Of a stretch of DNA of 20,506 bases, positions 8,638 to 18,812 are shown in pieces. The translations under genes and the position numbers were made by a program. The notes under the pieces are model-generated. The model ran no database searches. It had not been told where the DNA came from and saw only the letters and a list, made by a program, of their open reading frames with translations. The number at the start of each line of letters is the position of its first letter. Position 1 is the stretch's first letter. Source of the stretch: a virus; IMG/VR virus record IMGVR_UViG_3300042892_000206, positions 1 through 20,506 of that record. One strand, written 5' to 3'.

Positions 8638-9642
8638 TTACTTAATCTGTGTCCAGACTCGTTCACGGATTTGTTTTGTTAAACTGTCCGGCAATGCTAC
8701 ATAGTCTAAGTCTGCGGCATCTTTCTTACCATTCTTAAATGCCCAATCAAAGAACTTTAACACTTCATCGCTGGCTGCTTTGTTTTTTGGCTCTTTGTAC
8801 ATGATGATAAAACTGGCAGAACTTACTGGCCAAGCATTAGGATTCTTTTGATCTACAATGCTCAATCCCATGCCCGGAACTGAGAACCAATCAGCACCAT
8901 CTGCGGCTGCGGCAAATGTTACGTCATCTGGACTAACATACTTTCCGCTTTTGTTTTGTAGCTGTAAGAATGTCATATTGTTTTTCTTAACATAAGCATA
9001 CTCTACATAACCAATACTACCTTTAATTCTGTTCACATTGGCAGCAACACCTTCATTGCCCTTGCCACCGATTGACATGGCAGCAGGCCACTTGACTGCG
9101 GCACCTCGACCCACACGCTGTAACCACTCGGGGCTAACTGTGGCAAGATAATCAGTCCAGTTGAATGTTGTGCCTGAACCATCAGCACGATGTACAATAG
9201 TGATAGCCTGATCTGGCAACTGTTTACCTGGATTCAACGCCGCTAGTTTAGGATCATTCCATTTAGTAATGTTTCCCATGAATACATCTGCCATAACTGG
9301 TCCAGTAATACGTAGCTCGCCTGGCTTAAAACCATCTAAGTTAACTACTGGAACTGTTCCGCCAATAATAGCAGGGAATTGAACCTGCCCCTGCTTGTCT
9401 AAGTTCTCTCCGCTTACTGGAGCATCTGTAGCACCAAAGTCTACGGTCTTGTTGTTGATTTGTCTAATGCCGCCTGATGATCCAATGCTTTGATAGTTCA
9501 TACCAGTACCTGTGGCTTTTTTGTAACCTTCAGCCCATTTGGCGTAGATTGGGTAAGGGAATGTTGCCCCTGCTCCTGTGATGTCTGCGGCTGATGCCGA
9601 TACTGTCACTGCGGCTAATAAAATAGCAAATAGTTTTTTCAC
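8638..9642 (-). CDS. pstS: Phosphate ABC transporter substrate-binding protein PstS
   Basis: Start at GTG 9640-9642, set by a strong AAGGAG site; a longer TTG frame to 9684 lacks one. The protein is 334 aa, full length for PstS. It has a signal peptide MKKLFAILLAAVTVSASA, then the phosphate-binding features GAGATFPYP (residues 23-31), GSSGG (54-58), DFGATDAP (68-75) and RADGSGTT (152-159). It binds phosphate in the periplasm and hands it to the host Pst permease, which this window does not encode. The sequence has the look of betaproteobacterial PstS. Phage pstS genes are known in cyanophages as phosphate-stress genes. A Pho-box-like site lies upstream. Confidence 0.95.
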   Translation of the reverse strand: MKKLFAILLAAVTVSASAADITGAGATFPYPIYAKWAEGYKKATGTGMNYQSIGSSGGIRQINNKTVDFGATDAPVSGENLDKQGQVQFPAIIGGTVPVVNLDGFKPGELRITGPVMADVFMGNITKWNDPKLAALNPGKQLPDQAITIVHRADGSGTTFNWTDYLATVSPEWLQRVGRGAAVKWPAAMSIGGKGNEGVAANVNRIKGSIGYVEYAYVKKNNMTFLQLQNKSGKYVSPDDVTFAAAADGADWFSVPGMGLSIVDQKNPNAWPVSSASFIIMYKEPKNKAASDEVLKFFDWAFKNGKKDAADLDYVALPDSLTKQIRERVWTQIK

Positions 9643-9671
9643 TGTAAGTCTCCTTGTGTTAGTGATATAGT

Positions 9672-9679
9672 TATTTAAA
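9672..9679 (-). promoter_or_regulatory. Late promoter variant or -10 region of pstS
   Basis: Minus-strand TTTAAATA, one base from the T4 late word, 29 nt before the GTG. It also stands about 10 nt after the Pho-box-like site, the spacing expected for a PhoB-dependent -10 element. Confidence 0.4.
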
Positions 9680-9688
9680 CACAAATCG

Positions 9689-10680: not shown

Positions 10681-10699
10681 CTTATTTGTATTTAAGCAA
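10671..10699 (-). promoter_or_regulatory. Sigma-70-like promoter, TTGCTT-N17-TATAAT
   Basis: -35 TTGCTT at 10694-10699 and -10 TATAAT at 10671-10676 on the minus strand, spacer 17. The -35 box overlaps the last codons of the YqgE-like gene. It drives HNH and the YbaN-family gene. Confidence 0.65.
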
Positions 10700-11240
10700 G
10701 AACGGATTGAGCGAATTCACTTCCCGAATGCTCAATTGCTTCAGTCCATTGTGTTTGGCTATCTAGCTCAAATATAATCTGTTGAGATCCAGATGCAATT
10801 AGCCAACTATTGTTATGCTGATATGGAGGATTACCTTGTAATTCGTTTTCAAGTTGACCCGATGTCCAGCCGCAAAGGCCTACAAATAGTCTCCATACTT
10901 TTGGAACATTTCCCATAGCAAGATTGGTTAAAATATCAGGACTAGAACTTAGACTAAACTTATCGTTAATAGTCATTGTATTCCCACAACTCCATTCTGC
11001 ACTATGCAACATAGTAAGTGCCTTGACATTAACTGGACCACCAACGTGTATGTATCCCGGAATATCTAAACTGATATTGTGTTGGCTAGCAAATTCCGTA
11101 ATAGACATTTGACTTTGTTTATTGAGCACCAGTCCAACAGCACCGTTTTTATGATGTTCTGTTAAAAATATCACAGTCTTCTGCCAAAAATTTCCTCTCA
11201 CGTTAGGGGGAGCAATTAATAAGTTTCCTGTTAGATTCAT
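10692..11240 (-). CDS. YqgE/AlgH family (UPF0301) protein
   Basis: A 182-aa protein of the usual family length. Family segments are clear: GNLLIAPPNVRGNFWQKTVIFLTEH, GAVGLVLNK, YIHVGGPVN, the TMLHSAEW segment, LSSSPDIL and FVGLCGWTSGQLENEL. It is a cytoplasmic one-domain fold whose job in bacteria is not settled; AlgH was named from an alginate-related effect in Pseudomonas. The start shares one base with the stop of the SGNH-lysozyme gene (TAATG), so it is read as part of that late operon. Presence in a phage suggests acquisition from a host. No active site can be pointed out. Confidence 0.9.
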   Translation of the reverse strand: MNLTGNLLIAPPNVRGNFWQKTVIFLTEHHKNGAVGLVLNKQSQMSITEFASQHNISLDIPGYIHVGGPVNVKALTMLHSAEWSCGNTMTINDKFSLSSSPDILTNLAMGNVPKVWRLFVGLCGWTSGQLENELQGNPPYQHNNSWLIASGSQQIIFELDSQTQWTEAIEHSGSEFAQSVLA

Positions 11241-13818: not shown

Positions 13819-14100
13819 TTAGATTGCATCAACAGTCAAACCCAATGACTTAGCCTTGTAGCCAAGTGCTACGATTTCACGGCTTGGCTTGCCAAGTGCG
13901 TATTCTGTTACAGTAACACCGTTACCAGACTTGCGGGTATTTGCATAAACAGCATAACCGCTATGACGGATACGACTAGCTTCTGCGGCAATGTTCTTAA
14001 TGCCAAAACGCTTTTCAGCTTGGCTGGCAGTAACGCTCTCGCCATTGTACAATGCGTTAAACAGTTTAAATGTCTTAGTTTCTTTAGAGATGAATTTCAT
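13819..14100 (-). CDS. Helix-turn-helix-like DNA-binding protein
   Basis: A 93-aa protein. FKLFNALYNGESVTASQAEKRFGIKNIAAEASRIRHSGYAVYANTR has the order of a winged helix-turn-helix: helix, QAEKRFGI turn, recognition helix, then a wing with GVTVTEYALG. It matches a small DNA-binding family I remember in cyanophages. Its own strong promoter (14147-14175) and an inverted repeat just downstream (14120-14138) suggest autoregulation, and the terminator below makes it a single-gene unit. An AAGGA site precedes ATG 14100. The last residues GLTVDAI nearly repeat the end of another gene in this window. Confidence 0.85.
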   Translation of the reverse strand: MKFISKETKTFKLFNALYNGESVTASQAEKRFGIKNIAAEASRIRHSGYAVYANTRKSGNGVTVTEYALGKPSREIVALGYKAKSLGLTVDAI

Positions 14101-14743: not shown

Positions 14744-14751
14744 TATTTATT
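14744..14751 (-). promoter_or_regulatory. T4-type late promoter variant
   Basis: Minus-strand AATAAATA, overlapping the -10 box of the sigma-70 promoter below and 17 nt before ATG 14726. Confidence 0.5.
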
Positions 14752-14777
14752 ATACATTAAACAGCATCAACTGTCAA
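14749..14777 (-). promoter_or_regulatory. Perfect sigma-70 promoter TTGACA-N17-TATAAT
   Basis: -35 TTGACA at 14772-14777, inside the last codons of the upstream gene, and -10 TATAAT at 14749-14754. Spacer 17. Drives the 60-aa and 116-aa genes and shares bases with the late element. Confidence 0.8.
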
Positions 14778-15113
14778 TCCCCATTTGAGTTGCCAAAATG
14801 TATAGTCACTATCTTTGAGTTTGGCTGTTACATAATACTCATAACCCCATAATAAGAATTGATGATTTTGTCGATGCCATTCTGGAGTATCTAAAGATCG
14901 CTCCATGACCCACATGCCCATTTCACTTTTTTGCCATTCATACAATGGCTGGGCCGCATACAAGTCCGGATCTTCAACATCACCCATTTTAAATCGGTGT
15001 ACAACTAATTTATGGATTCGATGCACACGATCACCAATTTGAAGATAGTCGTGTACGACCACGGGCTTTGGGTCAGCCAAGTAACCCTTATCCAATGCTT
15101 TCGTCATAGCCAT
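14757..15113 (-). CDS. Conserved phage protein of the WQLKWG type
   Basis: About 118 aa from ATG 15111-15113. Other starts are ATG 15107 and a TTG just after the stop of the upstream gene (behind AAGGG), so the start is not certain. The core KMGDVEDPDLYAAQPLYEWQKSEMGMWVME and the end YTFWQLKWG resemble a conserved protein of T4-like aquatic phages. Its last residues (WQLKWG) are a divergent version of the F-x-L-x-W motif in five nearby genes. The stop region (GLTVDAV) contains the -35 box of the next promoter. It is the last gene of the long operon. Function unknown. Confidence 0.75.
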   Translation of the reverse strand: MAMTKALDKGYLADPKPVVVHDYLQIGDRVHRIHKLVVHRFKMGDVEDPDLYAAQPLYEWQKSEMGMWVMERSLDTPEWHRQNHQFLLWGYEYYVTAKLKDSDYTFWQLKWGLTVDAV

Positions 15114-15465
15114 AGTCAGGATCCACAAACTTGCTCAACAGCTCAAAGTTATCTTCTGCACGTTTAACGGCTTCTAGAGCTTTCATCAGTGCTGGATTGT
15201 TTTGTGCGAGAGTCATACGATTCAGAGCCATAGTACGTTGTGCTCTAGCCCATTGTATGATGTCTAGTATTTCTTGATCTAAACTTACAGTGGCATAATT
15301 GGTAGATAGCTGTTGCCAATTACTACCATTAAACACTTCTAAGTCTTGATTGTTAACCCGTATCATGCCTTGTATAGGGTTACTAGGGTTTTGTGGAATA
15401 TAAGGAAAAGACGTATTACCACCTGAGACTGTTAGTCCACAGACACCTGTTAAGTTTTTAATCAT
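15088..15465 (-). CDS. Phage protein with fibre-like start and helical tail
   Basis: ATG 15463-15465 is chosen (125 aa) because GGAG stands 7 nt before it; a longer frame to 15519 runs through the previous gene. The N-terminal half (LTVSGGNTSFPYIP, then IQGMIRVNNQDLEVFNGSNWQQL) is like the attachment part of phage fibre or capsid-fibre proteins. The C-terminal half is helical and contains NNPALMKALEAVKRAEDNFELL, a motif shared with two other genes here. It begins one base after the preceding stop. Possibly a minor virion protein; function is inferred from pattern only. Confidence 0.75.
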   Translation of the reverse strand: MIKNLTGVCGLTVSGGNTSFPYIPQNPSNPIQGMIRVNNQDLEVFNGSNWQQLSTNYATVSLDQEILDIIQWARAQRTMALNRMTLAQNNPALMKALEAVKRAEDNFELLSKFVDPDYGYDESIG

Positions 15466-15466
15466 A

Positions 15467-15646
15467 TTAACTCCAATGTAATAGGAACAGCGTTGCGTCA
15501 CTGTCCTTTTTAAAATCAATAAACGCTAGATCCCGCAACGTCCACCTAGTGCCTGATGGGCCATAATGTTTCTCTAACCACTTAACCGGTGCCCAAGTAG
15601 GACCTTTGATGCGTTGTGTTAAGTCGCCTAGGTATACCGTTTTCAT
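15467..15646 (-). CDS. Small protein of the FK-x7-F-L-L-x-W-S family (copy A)
   Basis: 59 aa from ATG 15644-15646, which overlaps the upstream stop by 4 nt (ATGA); a longer frame to 15676 is not needed. It ends FKKDSDATLFLLHWS. The body has KGPTWAPVKWLEKHYGPSGTRWTLRD. It is one of five tandem genes with the same C-terminal pattern, so paralogy or a shared docking tail is likely. No catalytic residues are obvious. Function unknown. Confidence 0.75.
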   Translation of the reverse strand: MKTVYLGDLTQRIKGPTWAPVKWLEKHYGPSGTRWTLRDLAFIDFKKDSDATLFLLHWS

Positions 15647-15852
15647 TCGTCTCCGCTCCAACGAAGAATAAACCAATCTCGTTGGCTTTCCTTTTTAAAA
15701 CTCCATAACAGATCAGTCATGCGTGTGCCTACCCCTTGTTCAGTTAGTCGCCACTCGTCCATTTCATGCAGCTTTTCTTCTGTCATTTCTTCTTTGTCTA
15801 GCACCACGCCTGGAAGTCTAAACATTCCTACTTCACAAGTTTGCATTTTCAT
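15643..15852 (-). CDS. Small protein of the FK-x7-F-I-L-x-W-S family (copy B)
   Basis: 69 aa from ATG 15850-15852, overlapping the nucleotidase stop (ATGA). A second Met two residues later is possible. It starts MKMQTCEVGMFRLPG, has a charged middle EEMTEEKLHEMDEWRL and ends FKKESQRDWFILRWSGDE. The F-K-x7-F-I-L-R-W-S core is the same as in copies A, C, D and E. The short body suggests a single small alpha/beta fold. Function unknown. Confidence 0.75.
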   Translation of the reverse strand: MKMQTCEVGMFRLPGVVLDKEEMTEEKLHEMDEWRLTEQGVGTRMTDLLWSFKKESQRDWFILRWSGDE

Positions 15853-16346
15853 TTTGCGTTTACCTCATTGTCTAACCAAGGCAGACACTCATCCCACGAT
15901 CTATATTCATGTGCTCGTCCGCCAGCACTACGCCATTCACTACAGTTGCTATGTCGGTCATCGATTAAGATGTCGCCAGGCTGACAGTGTCTCCATTTGT
16001 CGTGACTAAATGGTCCAAGGAATACAGGAATGCCAGGGAAGTGTTTGTTGGCCCACCATACCTTATCTTGAGCCGCATAAGGCATACTGTAATCGTGTGG
16101 CAATGCTGATAAGAAGAATACCGAGTCTACTCGACCTTTTGACACTTGTTGTTTACAGTAGTCAACTAGTTCATGTGCTTTCGGTTTTAATGGCAAGTCC
16201 AAATAGAACCTACTCCAATTCTTAAGTTGATTCCATTGCTCTTGAGGAATACGTTCTCCGTACTGATCCCACCGCAATTTTAAAAATGACTGGGCTGCTT
16301 CGTGCCAGTCGGCAACAACATCATCCATATCTAGATATATTTTCAT
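15849..16346 (-). CDS. HAD-family 5'(3')-deoxyribonucleotidase-like enzyme
   Basis: A 165-aa protein with HAD motifs: DMDDVVADW (D6 nucleophile, D8 acid/base), a motif II serine in FFLSALPH, a lysine in SHDKW, and the acidic motif IV DILIDDRHSNCSEW. The cap region and the W/AGG/EY end resemble mitochondrial-type 5'(3')-deoxyribonucleotidase. It should remove phosphate from deoxynucleoside monophosphates, controlling the nucleotide pool or supplying salvage nucleosides during phage DNA synthesis. It overlaps both neighbours by 4 nt (ATGA), inside the early operon. Alternative: a general HAD phosphatase. Confidence 0.85.
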   Translation of the reverse strand: MKIYLDMDDVVADWHEAAQSFLKLRWDQYGERIPQEQWNQLKNWSRFYLDLPLKPKAHELVDYCKQQVSKGRVDSVFFLSALPHDYSMPYAAQDKVWWANKHFPGIPVFLGPFSHDKWRHCQPGDILIDDRHSNCSEWRSAGGRAHEYRSWDECLPWLDNEVNAK

Positions 16347-16723
16347 TTTCTACATAACTCCAATAGCATTTGATAATTCCTGTAGGCTTTGGCTACAGCA
16401 GGGTTGTTATAGCGCACTTGTTCATCCTTACGCTGATTTGTCAATATTGTTTTAGCATAGTTAGCTTCGTCTCTCCAGCTGTCTATACGAGAGAATTCAT
16501 CCATAAGATGATCAAACTGTTCTCTGGGCAAATGGATAGCAACAAGAGGTTCTACTCTATGTTCTATTTCATGCATGGCTGTAGCATGATACTGATGGTA
16601 ATTCCAACTAGGTGCAACATACGCAGCACGCCTATACTCTTTGCTTTCAGTTACATGTGCTTGGAATCTAGATTCAAAGCGTTTAGTATCTCTATTTTCT
16701 TCGTCAGTATATCTATATGACAT
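16343..16723 (-). CDS. Conserved phage protein with NPxVxKAY tail
   Basis: A 126-aa helical, charged protein: ENRDTKRFESRFQAHVTESKEYRRA, then SWNYHQYHATAMHEIEHRVEPLVAIHLPREQFDHLM, ending NNPAVAKAYRNYQMLLELCRK. The last motif recurs in the 156-aa and 125-aa genes. The histidine-rich middle could bind metal, but no complete metal motif is formed. It begins in a TAATG overlap with copy C and ends in an ATGA overlap with the nucleotidase, so it is fully coupled. Function unknown. Confidence 0.75.
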   Translation of the reverse strand: MSYRYTDEENRDTKRFESRFQAHVTESKEYRRAAYVAPSWNYHQYHATAMHEIEHRVEPLVAIHLPREQFDHLMDEFSRIDSWRDEANYAKTILTNQRKDEQVRYNNPAVAKAYRNYQMLLELCRK

Positions 16724-17028
16724 TAGCTACTCCACTTCAGTAAAAACATTGTAACATGTTTGTCCTGTTTAAACAACCACATGTCAAAGCTCAATCGTTT
16801 AGCTGTAGGTATATTAGTCCAAATCCATTGTTGTACTTCATCCATGTCACTATCGCGTAGGCCACGTTCAAATCCGCGAGGTTGTACATCGACATAGGCT
16901 TTCAGCTTGCGGCCAGGCAACTGTTGCCATGATATTTTAGGTGTAGACGATTCAGCTTTGGCACTTGCTCGCATCATGGGTACTGATAGTTTTACCGATT
17001 GTCCCAATACTTCGATTATACCTTTCAT
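16723..17028 (-). CDS. Protein of the FK-x7-F-L-L-x-W-S family (copy C)
   Basis: 101 aa from ATG 17026-17028 behind AAGG/GGGG, in an ATGA overlap with copy D; a TTG start at 17052 is rejected. It begins MKGIIEVLGQSVKL, has a loop-rich centre (RGFERGLRDSDMDEVQQWIW) and ends FKQDKHVTMFLLKWSS. The C-terminal 15 residues follow the pattern of the other four copies while the front differs, suggesting a common end module on different bodies. Function unknown. Confidence 0.75.
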   Translation of the reverse strand: MKGIIEVLGQSVKLSVPMMRASAKAESSTPKISWQQLPGRKLKAYVDVQPRGFERGLRDSDMDEVQQWIWTNIPTAKRLSFDMWLFKQDKHVTMFLLKWSS

Positions 17029-17246
17029 GATCCCCACCTTAGTAAGAACCAATGATAGTATTTGGATTCTTTAAACATGAATGTAGTATGACCAAACATG
17101 CTTTCAATCGCCCATACATAGTTACCCATTCCTTCCCATGTCTCTAGTTTGCCGCTGACCCAACGACCTTCACCTACATAAGTACGACACCACTGTTCCA
17201 TCTCACCATTCAGGTGATAGTGGGTGTTATTAAATGTAATATGCAT
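17025..17246 (-). CDS. Protein of the FK-x7-F-L-L-x-W-G family (copy D)
   Basis: 73 aa if started at ATG 17244-17246, in a TGATG overlap with copy E's stop and after GGAG, although the spacing is short; ATG 17255 is an alternative. The body (GEMEQWCRTYVGEGRWVSGKLE) has a short helical and a loop segment, and the end is FKESKYYHWFLLRWGS, the conserved pattern with G for S. Function unknown. Confidence 0.7.
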   Translation of the reverse strand: MHITFNNTHYHLNGEMEQWCRTYVGEGRWVSGKLETWEGMGNYVWAIESMFGHTTFMFKESKYYHWFLLRWGS

Positions 17247-17560
17247 CAACTCCATCGCAATATAAACCAATTTAGATCTTTTTCATTTCGAAACCAGAAC
17301 TTGGCATTGTTAGCATACCATCGCATGTTAGGAGTCCATACTCCGTCCACCGCGCTAGGACCAAATGTCTTTACCATCCAGTCCATCATTTCATTCCATT
17401 GCCAGCTGTTATTAGGATGTACTGTTAGATACTTTGCTCCATATACACGGCCTTCGTCTAGTACAAAATTGTGCCAGCCAATAGCGGTCATTAGAACTTC
17501 TTCATCAATGTCTTTGGCCATTTGACGGGCAATGTTTGTGAGGATATCGTCTTGTGTCAT
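17246..17560 (-). CDS. Protein of the F[KR]-x7-F-I-L-x-W-S family (copy E)
   Basis: 104 aa from ATG 17558-17560 behind AAGAG. An N-terminal helix ILTNIARQMAKDIDEEVLMTAIG is followed by a beta-rich body (HNFVLDEGRVYGAKYLTV) and ends FRNEKDLNWFILRWS. This is the longest of the five and may be nearest the ancestral form. The EVLMTAIGW piece could form a small dimer helix. It starts 4 nt after the preceding stop. Function unknown. Confidence 0.75.
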   Translation of the reverse strand: MTQDDILTNIARQMAKDIDEEVLMTAIGWHNFVLDEGRVYGAKYLTVHPNNSWQWNEMMDWMVKTFGPSAVDGVWTPNMRWYANNAKFWFRNEKDLNWFILRWS

Positions 17561-17564
17561 TGCA

Positions 17565-18035
17565 TTACTCTTTTACGTGGTCCTTAGTTAGTTGTGCCAC
17601 TAACAAGAATCGTTCGTAGGCTTTACGCACACTGGGATTAGTCATTAACTTATCAGCTTCTGCTTGCATGGCTTTGACTCCAGCTTCGGCTGCTTCTCTG
17701 TAACTGCACCACTCTAATGCATAACGTTCATTTCCAAACGTTTTAGCAAGGGCCTTCCATGCTTTCAACTGTGCAGGTGTTAGGGGCTTGTCACGCTCAG
17801 GCACCCGAAGGGCACTGGCATCCATAATGCTTTTGCTTATAGCATCTTCAGCAACACGGCCCGCGGCAATCATCGGAGCATAGGCAGGATCGATATTGAA
17901 CCGTCTGCTTGAACCGCCTGGGTAGACATCTACTAAGTGTGTGCCTTTGGGAAAGCTATCGCAGAACTCTGAACTGTATGTACTGTGCGGAATGTACTTA
18001 CGTCCTTTTTTGATATAGAAAATTGTCTCGGCCAT
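17565..18035 (-). CDS. Conserved marine-phage protein, function unknown
   Basis: A 156-aa protein whose start, IFYIKKGRKYIPHSTYSS, and middle, HLVDVYPGGSSRRFNIDPAYAPMIAAGRVAEDAI, match my memory of a protein present in many T4-like cyanophages and other aquatic phages, never given a function. It ends with TNPSVRKAYERFLLVAQLT, the same NPxVxKAY motif as two neighbours. The C-terminal half, with KALAKTFGNERYALEWCSYREAAEAGVKAM, is helical. It lies downstream of the D,D-peptidase by 15 nt. Function unknown. Confidence 0.85.
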   Translation of the reverse strand: MAETIFYIKKGRKYIPHSTYSSEFCDSFPKGTHLVDVYPGGSSRRFNIDPAYAPMIAAGRVAEDAISKSIMDASALRVPERDKPLTPAQLKAWKALAKTFGNERYALEWCSYREAAEAGVKAMQAEADKLMTNPSVRKAYERFLLVAQLTKDHVKE

Positions 18036-18050
18036 ACGTCACCATTAGAG

Positions 18051-18812
18051 TTACTTTATAATGTAAGTATACATGATCTCTTTTAGTCTGTCAAGTCTAT
18101 CCTGTTTAGTCTTGGCTCCCAATATTACCACAGCATAGGTTTGATTATCTTGTTCGACCAGTACGGCCACGCACCATCCAGCGGCTGTGGTTAGCCCTGT
18201 TTTGGTTATGACAATATTTTCAAATTCAAATAGTGCAGGACCATTGGTATTTTGTAAAATAATAGTATGCGTTTTCTTTTTTAGAACTGTTTCGAATTCA
18301 GCTTGCCGCTTGGGCGAATTTTCTCTAATGAACGGTTGAAAACTAGCAGCTACTAATAGTCTATGTATATCTAGAGCAGTGCTTTTATTTTCGTTGCTCA
18401 AACCGCTAGCATCACTAAAATGAGTATTATTCATTCCCAGGGTCTTGGCACGTAGATTCATTTCTTGCAAGAACGCTGCTCTGCCACCCGGATAATCAGC
18501 AGCCAATGTTTCCGCTGCTGCATTATCGCTTCTAACCAACATGGCTATTAATAACTCTTGCCTAGTGTAGATCTTGCGTGGAAGTACAGCTGGCCAGTTT
18601 GATGACAATGTTAATTTACGATTTAAATCTAGGCCTGCATCTAACGCTACTAAAGCCGTCATTAACTTAGTAATGCTGGCTAACGGTCTAATATTTTGAG
18701 TGCCTTGCGAAACTAGTACAGTACCAGTGGTTTGATTATATACTAATACGCTTGAGCTAGATTTAGCCCAAGCGCAGTTTACAAATAAGGATAGTATTAT
18801 AATCCATTTCAC
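18051..18812 (-). CDS. S11 family D-alanyl-D-alanine carboxypeptidase/endopeptidase
   Basis: A 253-aa protein starting at GTG 18810-18812 with a signal peptide (MKWIIILSLFVNCAWA). All penicillin-binding active-site motifs are present: SITK (S46, K49), SDN (S95, N97) and KTG (204-206). Length and the YNQTTGTVLVSQG start fit PBP7/PbpG or DacA-like enzymes; the C-terminal PBP5 domain and amphipathic anchor are absent. It should trim or cut peptidoglycan cross-links in the periplasm. The ribosome site is weak and the gap to the preceding gene is 7 nt. An S11 peptidase in an early phage operon is unusual and may remodel the wall or prevent superinfection. Confidence 0.93.
   Translation of the reverse strand: MKWIIILSLFVNCAWAKSSSSVLVYNQTTGTVLVSQGTQNIRPLASITKLMTALVALDAGLDLNRKLTLSSNWPAVLPRKIYTRQELLIAMLVRSDNAAAETLAADYPGGRAAFLQEMNLRAKTLGMNNTHFSDASGLSNENKSTALDIHRLLVAASFQPFIRENSPKRQAEFETVLKKKTHTIILQNTNGPALFEFENIVITKTGLTTAAGWCVAVLVEQDNQTYAVVILGAKTKQDRLDRLKEIMYTYIIK

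Follow-up and report, generated by a model that had tools for sequence, protein, structure and literature searches.

A tandemly expanded family of small phage proteins with a common C-terminal tail and overlapping gene starts

The gene cassette and its five tails

We analyzed a 20,506-nucleotide stretch of viral DNA (the window), whose minus strand carries a cassette of overlapping genes (15088..18035) in the order 156-aa gene, E, D, C, 126-aa gene, NT5C nucleotidase gene, B, A and 143-aa gene. Gene E (17246-17560) encodes an N-terminal module and a domain for which we propose the name LRW domain; D (73 aa from an ATG at 17246; 17025..17246), B (69 aa; 15643..15852) and A (59 aa from an ATG at 15646; 15467..15646) are predicted to be LRW-domain proteins, as is C (101 aa from an ATG at 17028; 16723..17028), which has an N-terminal extension. 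The pattern F[KR]-x7-F[LI]-L-x-W-[SG] was matched exactly by all five tails, each on the minus strand: FKKDSDATLFLLHWS in A (15470-15514), FKKESQRDWFILRWS in B (15655-15699), FKQDKHVTMFLLKWS in C (16726-16773), FKESKYYHWFLLRWG in D (17028-17075) and FRNEKDLNWFILRWS in E (17249-17293). An earlier note on this DNA had placed the motif, with identical spacing, in the last 15 residues of every copy; the motif is exact in A-E, but B, C and D continue 1-3 residues past it (GDE in B, a final S in both C and D). A slightly looser tail pattern stood at the end of 311 of 7610 ORFs (92 sequences), compared with 4 after per-ORF shuffling; five such tails within one 20-kb window are therefore not a chance occurrence, and the common motif is real. 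Other genes do sit between the copies, as had been noted, with the 126-aa gene and the NT5C nucleotidase gene separating C from B.

The records are fragments from metagenomes, and the start codons given here are predictions. As listed, the ORFs of A, C and D open at TTG codons that lie inside the tail of the upstream gene; judging from the sequence, the ATG overlapping or abutting the upstream stop is the likelier start in all three. Tail codons read out of frame also appear as the spurious MVYIEVV starts of many listed ORFs.

We examined the gene at 14757..15128 (minus strand), whose end (WQLKWG) had been counted as a sixth, divergent copy. Neither the domain profile (up to E=10) nor a search of the whole record recovered this gene, and when compared as a profile with each of the five families it reached a probability of 17% at most; these searches rule it out as a member of the LRW family, and it is instead a conserved neighbour gene (family F). 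The residues after WQLKWG, LTVDAV, are encoded by codons that form the -35 box of a sigma-70-like promoter, a perfect TTGACA-17-TATAAT site (14749-14777, minus strand) overlapping the 3' end of the gene. The gene ending at 13819 has a similar end, GLTVDAI, from TTGACTGTTGAT.

Directly upstream of the cassette lies a sigma-70-like promoter, TTGACA-17-TATACT (18066..18094, minus strand); four TTGACA-17-TATANT sites occur in the window against 0.04 expected. This one promoter site suggests that the cassette is perhaps expressed early. No T4-type late promoter (TATAAATA) was found in or before the cassette, and the three matches in the window are no more than expected by chance. A conserved promoter ahead of the 156-aa gene was also considered and did not convince us: the site varies among relatives, and 10 or more of 12 positions matched in 9 of 28 loci, compared with 78 of 387 upstream of other genes.

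Relatives of gene E were found in 40 IMG/VR loci and relatives of gene B in 51. Probes consisting of E, B and two further relatives gave no DNA or protein match among 50,697 records of named phages, and no relative of gene E was found in the sampled cellular genomes. Fourteen records hold 4-14 LRW copies each, mostly clustered within a few kilobases; a 22.6-kb record holds 17, and a 77-kb record at least 33. The 77-kb record (L136-L139) has more LRW arrays (for example at record positions 63009-68476) with altered tails such as TWFLLQQ and TWFILRWS, which suggests decay or specialization of these arrays. Related phages show the same arrangement, 156-aa gene, LRW genes, 126-aa gene, (NT5C), B, (A), 143-aa gene, F, with most members kept, and differ in the number and type of their LRW genes.

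The 143-, 126- and 156-aa genes (15088-15465, 16343-16723 and 17565-18035, minus strand) have a C-terminal motif of their own, N-P-[AS]-[VL]-x-K-A-[YL], followed by a helix-like stretch; this motif was found in 65 ORFs of the loci versus 6 after shuffling, usually two or three per phage. The gene at 15088-15465 also has, in common with an LRW gene of another locus (L091:6948-7331), the stretch G-[AM]-[MI]-R-x-N-x2-L-x-Q/E-x-E-V-[YF]-[DN]-G-x2-W, which matches PHROG families of unknown function (E 2e-4 to 0.002) and looks like a piece of a fibre-type protein. Elsewhere in the window, the genes at 8638-9684, 10692-11240 and 18051-18812 by eye encode PstS-like phosphate-binding, YqgE-like and D-alanyl-D-alanine carboxypeptidase-like proteins, respectively.

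One domain family behind the tails

We then compared the five families by profile, each family being aligned from its own relatives before the family profiles were compared pairwise. Whole-protein profiles matched with high probability (A-E, B-C and D-E 98%; B-E and B-D 97%; A-D 93%; A-C 91%), and matches persisted when the tails were deleted (B-C 94%, A-E 90%, D-E 80%, B-D 51%). Without its tail, C had no significant direct profile match to A, D or E, and is therefore joined to the family via B. The fronts of the proteins, which the earlier note had called unrelated, are thus related, and the predicted folds of B and E share the same order of elements.

All five proteins matched a domain profile (E 8.6e-8 to 9.2e-15), and a second profile search gave E values of 4e-14 to 6.5e-22, the best for the LRW domain of gene E (residues 32-104; 17249..17467, minus strand); both profiles include window sequences, and the independent test is the family-versus-family comparison. 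The profile spans a helix W(C)xxxxxG, a strand RW, a strand FxF and a helix D..wFxLRW, and each of A-E matched over it. An alignment of 44 members conserves W20, F49, F58, L60 and W62, with an invariant Trp about 30 residues ahead of the tail and F, F, L and W within the tail.

AlphaFold models were obtained for B and E (mean pLDDT 80 and 82). The E model consists of strands 32-39 and 42-49, helix 52-66, strands 81-84 and 87-90 and helix 93-103, mostly with pLDDT above 85, and of a separate N-terminal helix (3-26, pLDDT about 60); the B model consists of strands 3-8 and 13-18, helix 25-35, strand 49-51 and helix 55-65. The order of elements, ββα-ββα, is found in both models, and the tail is therefore assigned to the last strand and last helix of a small fold. 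Structure prediction of the copies, proposed earlier as a check, was run on these two proteins and speaks for one family and against a tag. Together, the profile comparison, the two models and more than 300 relatives indicate that the common tail is the last strand and C-terminal helix of one predicted ββα-ββα domain of about 65 residues, the LRW domain, and that the fronts of the five proteins are largely the first half of the same domain. The earlier note had named a tail belonging to one fold, with related fronts, as the outcome that would count against its own reading, and this is largely what we found.

Foldseek searches with both models returned common uncharacterized proteins of uncultured phages (e.g., A0A6J7WGK8 and A0A6J5T1G0). 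No solved relative of the LRW domain was found in the PDB by sequence or by fold (Foldseek), no family in Pfam or PHROGs covers the domain, and none of the three resources suggested a function. A limited search of the literature found no description of the family.

Tail codons and N-terminal modules

The junctions downstream of the tails were inspected at the codon level. At the E/D junction, TGATG (17244..17248), the tail codons CGA-TGG-AGT stand ahead of the D start; at D/C, ATGA (17025..17028), AGG-TGG-GGA-TCA precede and overlap the C start; at the junction of C with the 126-aa gene, TAATG (16721..16725), AAG-TGG-AGT stand ahead of the start; at B/A, ATGA (15643..15646), TGG-AGC-GGA-GAC stand ahead of the A start; and at the junction of A with the 143-aa gene, TAATATG (15463..15469), TGG-AGT do so (all minus strand). 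The next start lay -8 to +12 nt from the stop in 274 of 318 non-redundant LRW copies (86%), compared with 395 of 1000 other genes, and ATGA junctions followed 172 of the 318 copies, compared with 153 of 1000 other genes. The Arg that precedes the tail Trp was encoded by AGG in 106 of 194 coupled copies (55%), whereas AGG accounted for 5 of 25 in uncoupled copies and for 80 of 1025 Arg codons at other places in these genes (8%); the bias is significant (p=6e-48 for coupled versus elsewhere, p=0.001 for coupled versus uncoupled), with the reservation that related copies are not independent. The AGG excess in coupled tails therefore indicates that the L-R-W-S codons are also shaped by use as the start signal of the next gene. 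From these sequence patterns, the L-R-W-S codons are predicted to double as its ribosome-binding and start signal, and the translational coupling would be functional. The amino-acid motif, which extends through the domain, is not accounted for by such use; the uniformity of the last codons in part is. The locus holds a single domain family, expanded in tandem, with overlapping starts and a codon bias in the tails.

Some LRW proteins carry additional modules at their N-terminus. Residues 35-77 of L073:924-1403 matched positions 2-44 of Pfam Gp23 (E=2.2e-11), and residues 7-88 of L047:3527-3892 matched positions 9-79 (E=3.6e-7), both above the curated cut-off; these matches establish, at the level of sequence, that the N-arm fragments are homologous to gp23. 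The L073 fusion was found in four contigs (identity 63-100%) and is therefore no assembly error, and its gp23 part has a dN/dS of about 0.3 between two diverged forms. L105 has a third gp23 piece, MFYAPYIPV (E=0.0019 in the record search, 0.045 in PHROGs). No LRW protein contained a whole HK97-fold capsid protein; fragments only were found, and six other related records encode a complete gp23 (386-400 aa) in a gene of its own. Among 8968 small ORFs, 8 of 11 distinct gp23 matches (E up to 2) were LRW proteins, which form 5% of the small ORFs. We know of no earlier description of proteins of this kind with short pieces of the phage's own capsid protein at the N-terminal end.

A fourth module, with a core like AxxMAxDIDxEVL, opens gene E in the window (residues 1-25, MTQDDILTNIARQMAKDIDEEVLMT; 17486..17560, minus strand) and resembles a segment of gp23 that would be the spine helix in the HK97 fold. 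A search of 3022 non-LRW ORFs with a profile built from 21 modules of this kind put three gp23s in the first three places (E=3.6e-4, 0.016 and 0.02), and hhalign aligned the module with gp23 at 71% over 25 columns (score 27-30.7), compared with a score of 17.9 for the runner-up among 285 long proteins and of at most 15.9 among 40 shuffled controls; in Pfam, a relative reached E=0.26. These sequence comparisons give good support to a candidate gp23-like helix at the start of gene E, although the aligned stretch is short and the match goes no higher than 71%. In most unsaturated close orthologue pairs the module has a dN/dS of 0.12-0.4, with higher values in several distant pairs, which indicates that the N-terminal modules are mostly under purifying selection.

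Modules resembling other phage proteins were also found. Several LRW proteins bear an endolysin-like module, YKGRGxIQLTGR, which matched PHROG endolysins (E 2e-4 to 0.003) and no Pfam endolysin; by its sequence the KGRGxIQxTGR module is probably endolysin-derived, and it is a short motif only, as no GH19-type catalytic domain was found in LRW proteins. A P-loop module, GRQMGKS, gave a DnaB-like match (E 0.007-0.03). Terminase gp17 was rejected as the source of GRxxGKS, as gp17 of five records has PRQxGKT and was missed by the module profile. Some orthologues of gene E bear the gp23-like helix and the others the GKS module, which also heads C-type genes; the modules have therefore been exchanged. 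One LRW gene, L033:6709-7062, is a double chimera that opens with the endolysin-like KYRGRGLVQITGREN, directly followed by the gp23-like helix LKDEIDREVL.

Possible roles and comparison with known systems

We favor, with fair confidence, an account in which one small phage domain, the LRW domain, was copied in tandem and diverged to give the five genes of a coupled cassette, some members having borrowed N-terminal modules. The last codons of each tail would supply the ribosome-binding and start signal for the next gene, and each copy would then be a ready-made unit to gain, lose or exchange. Some copies would have taken an N-terminal module from other phage genes (gp23 pieces, and probably endolysin-like and P-loop-like pieces), and these modules would be swapped between orthologues. 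The LRW domain may act as a common scaffold or partner-binding unit, with the variable N-termini setting what else is bound; we infer a set of small accessory factors, probably acting early, that use their variable ends to bind different partners. The adaptor family once proposed thus survives in altered form, the common part being the whole LRW domain and not the tail alone, and the variable part being the short N-terminal modules.

Other explanations were weighed against the same data. We regard it as very improbable that the tail is a short tag for docking, export or degradation, placed on unrelated proteins for one common reader. No other part is conserved nearly as well as the tail, which in most copies stands at the very C-terminus; homology, however, runs 40-50 residues upstream of the tail and includes the invariant Trp, the tail is predicted with high confidence as a strand and helix of the fold, and many B-type relatives (e.g., L061 and L072) have residues past the motif, which a strict C-terminal tag is unlikely to tolerate. 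The docking or export tag of the earlier note is not supported, since the models and the homology upstream make the tail integral to one fold that the fronts continue. We consider it unlikely, although less so, that the N-terminal modules are functionless by-products of recombination, in-frame fragments kept as new copies landed behind the starts of other genes. Their origin from several unrelated proteins and their exchange between orthologues agree with this idea, and conserved donors are simply easier to recognize; against it, four contigs share the fusion with the gp23 arm (63-100% identical, dN/dS about 0.3), and many families retain the gp23-like helix, mostly with a dN/dS of 0.1-0.4 in unsaturated close pairs. 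Because of this recurrence and the low dN/dS, the gp23 pieces are taken not to be drifting.

The capsid pieces raise two further readings. In one, a decoy or counter-defence array, the LRW domain would display pieces of the phage's own conserved proteins as decoys, blunting host sensors or the assembly of rival phages. In T4, a segment within the first quarter of gp23, Gol, binds EF-Tu and so favours cutting of EF-Tu by the Lit protease (PMC3014915); other defences are likewise set off by capsid proteins (PMC9712102). The gp23 pieces above the Pfam cut-off on two LRW proteins, the gp23-like helix on many, the excess of LRW proteins among gp23-like small ORFs, the constraint on these pieces and the multi-copy, fast-changing locus would all fit. 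A capsid module is nevertheless missing from the majority of copies, A, B and D of the window among them, and other modules resemble lysis and replication enzymes. By analogy, a decoy or interference role is plausible for the capsid-bearing members; as an explanation of the array we hold it to be rather improbable. A shade less probable still is its widest form, an array of swap-in proteins in which one scaffold shows capsid, lysis and replication pieces as decoys against host immunity or rival phages and each tail is the plug-in start for the next gene. We give a similarly low likelihood to the second reading, in which LRW proteins are minor virion components or assembly factors fitted into the capsid or prohead by their gp23-like pieces. 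Several members carry capsid pieces, and part of the 143-aa gene next to them bears a weak resemblance to a PHROG family (E=0.002), but the upstream promoter is of the early, sigma-70-like type with no late promoter of the T4 type in or before the cassette, and so strongly variable a copy number is unusual for virion parts.

The favored account of tandem LRW copies defines a large, previously unnamed domain family in a group of large uncultured phages and explains a repeated tail that looks like a tag as the product of a tandem domain family. One set of codons ends a protein and is predicted to signal the start of the next, an arrangement by which copies could be added like cassettes. The constrained gp23 fragments offer a testable route to function, namely what binds a lone capsid piece during infection.

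Two features are unusual, namely the capsid-like modules and the dual role predicted for the tail codons. In fold and size the LRW domain is like the BFVD proteins A0A6J5KZB5, A0A6J5KVW6 and A0A6J7WGK8 of uncultured Caudovirales phages (Foldseek E 3e-6, 2e-6 and 3e-4), which are unnamed and undescribed and are probably members of the family. Phage endolysins (phrog_181, phrog_9506) share the motif KYRGRGLVQITGR and its relatives with the start of several LRW proteins, whereas the LRW module is only about 15 residues long and has neither a catalytic domain nor a Pfam match. T4-type gp23 (PF07068, phrog_138) is resembled by the modules of L073 and L047 and, in its spine-helix segment, by that of gene E; the LRW modules differ in being pieces some 25-80 residues long that are joined to an LRW domain, with complete gp23 encoded separately. 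A functional parallel is the Gol region of T4 gp23, a segment that is active alone in the cell (PMC3014915): the L073 and L047 modules likewise come from the first quarter of gp23, whereas here the gp23 piece sits on a separate small protein.
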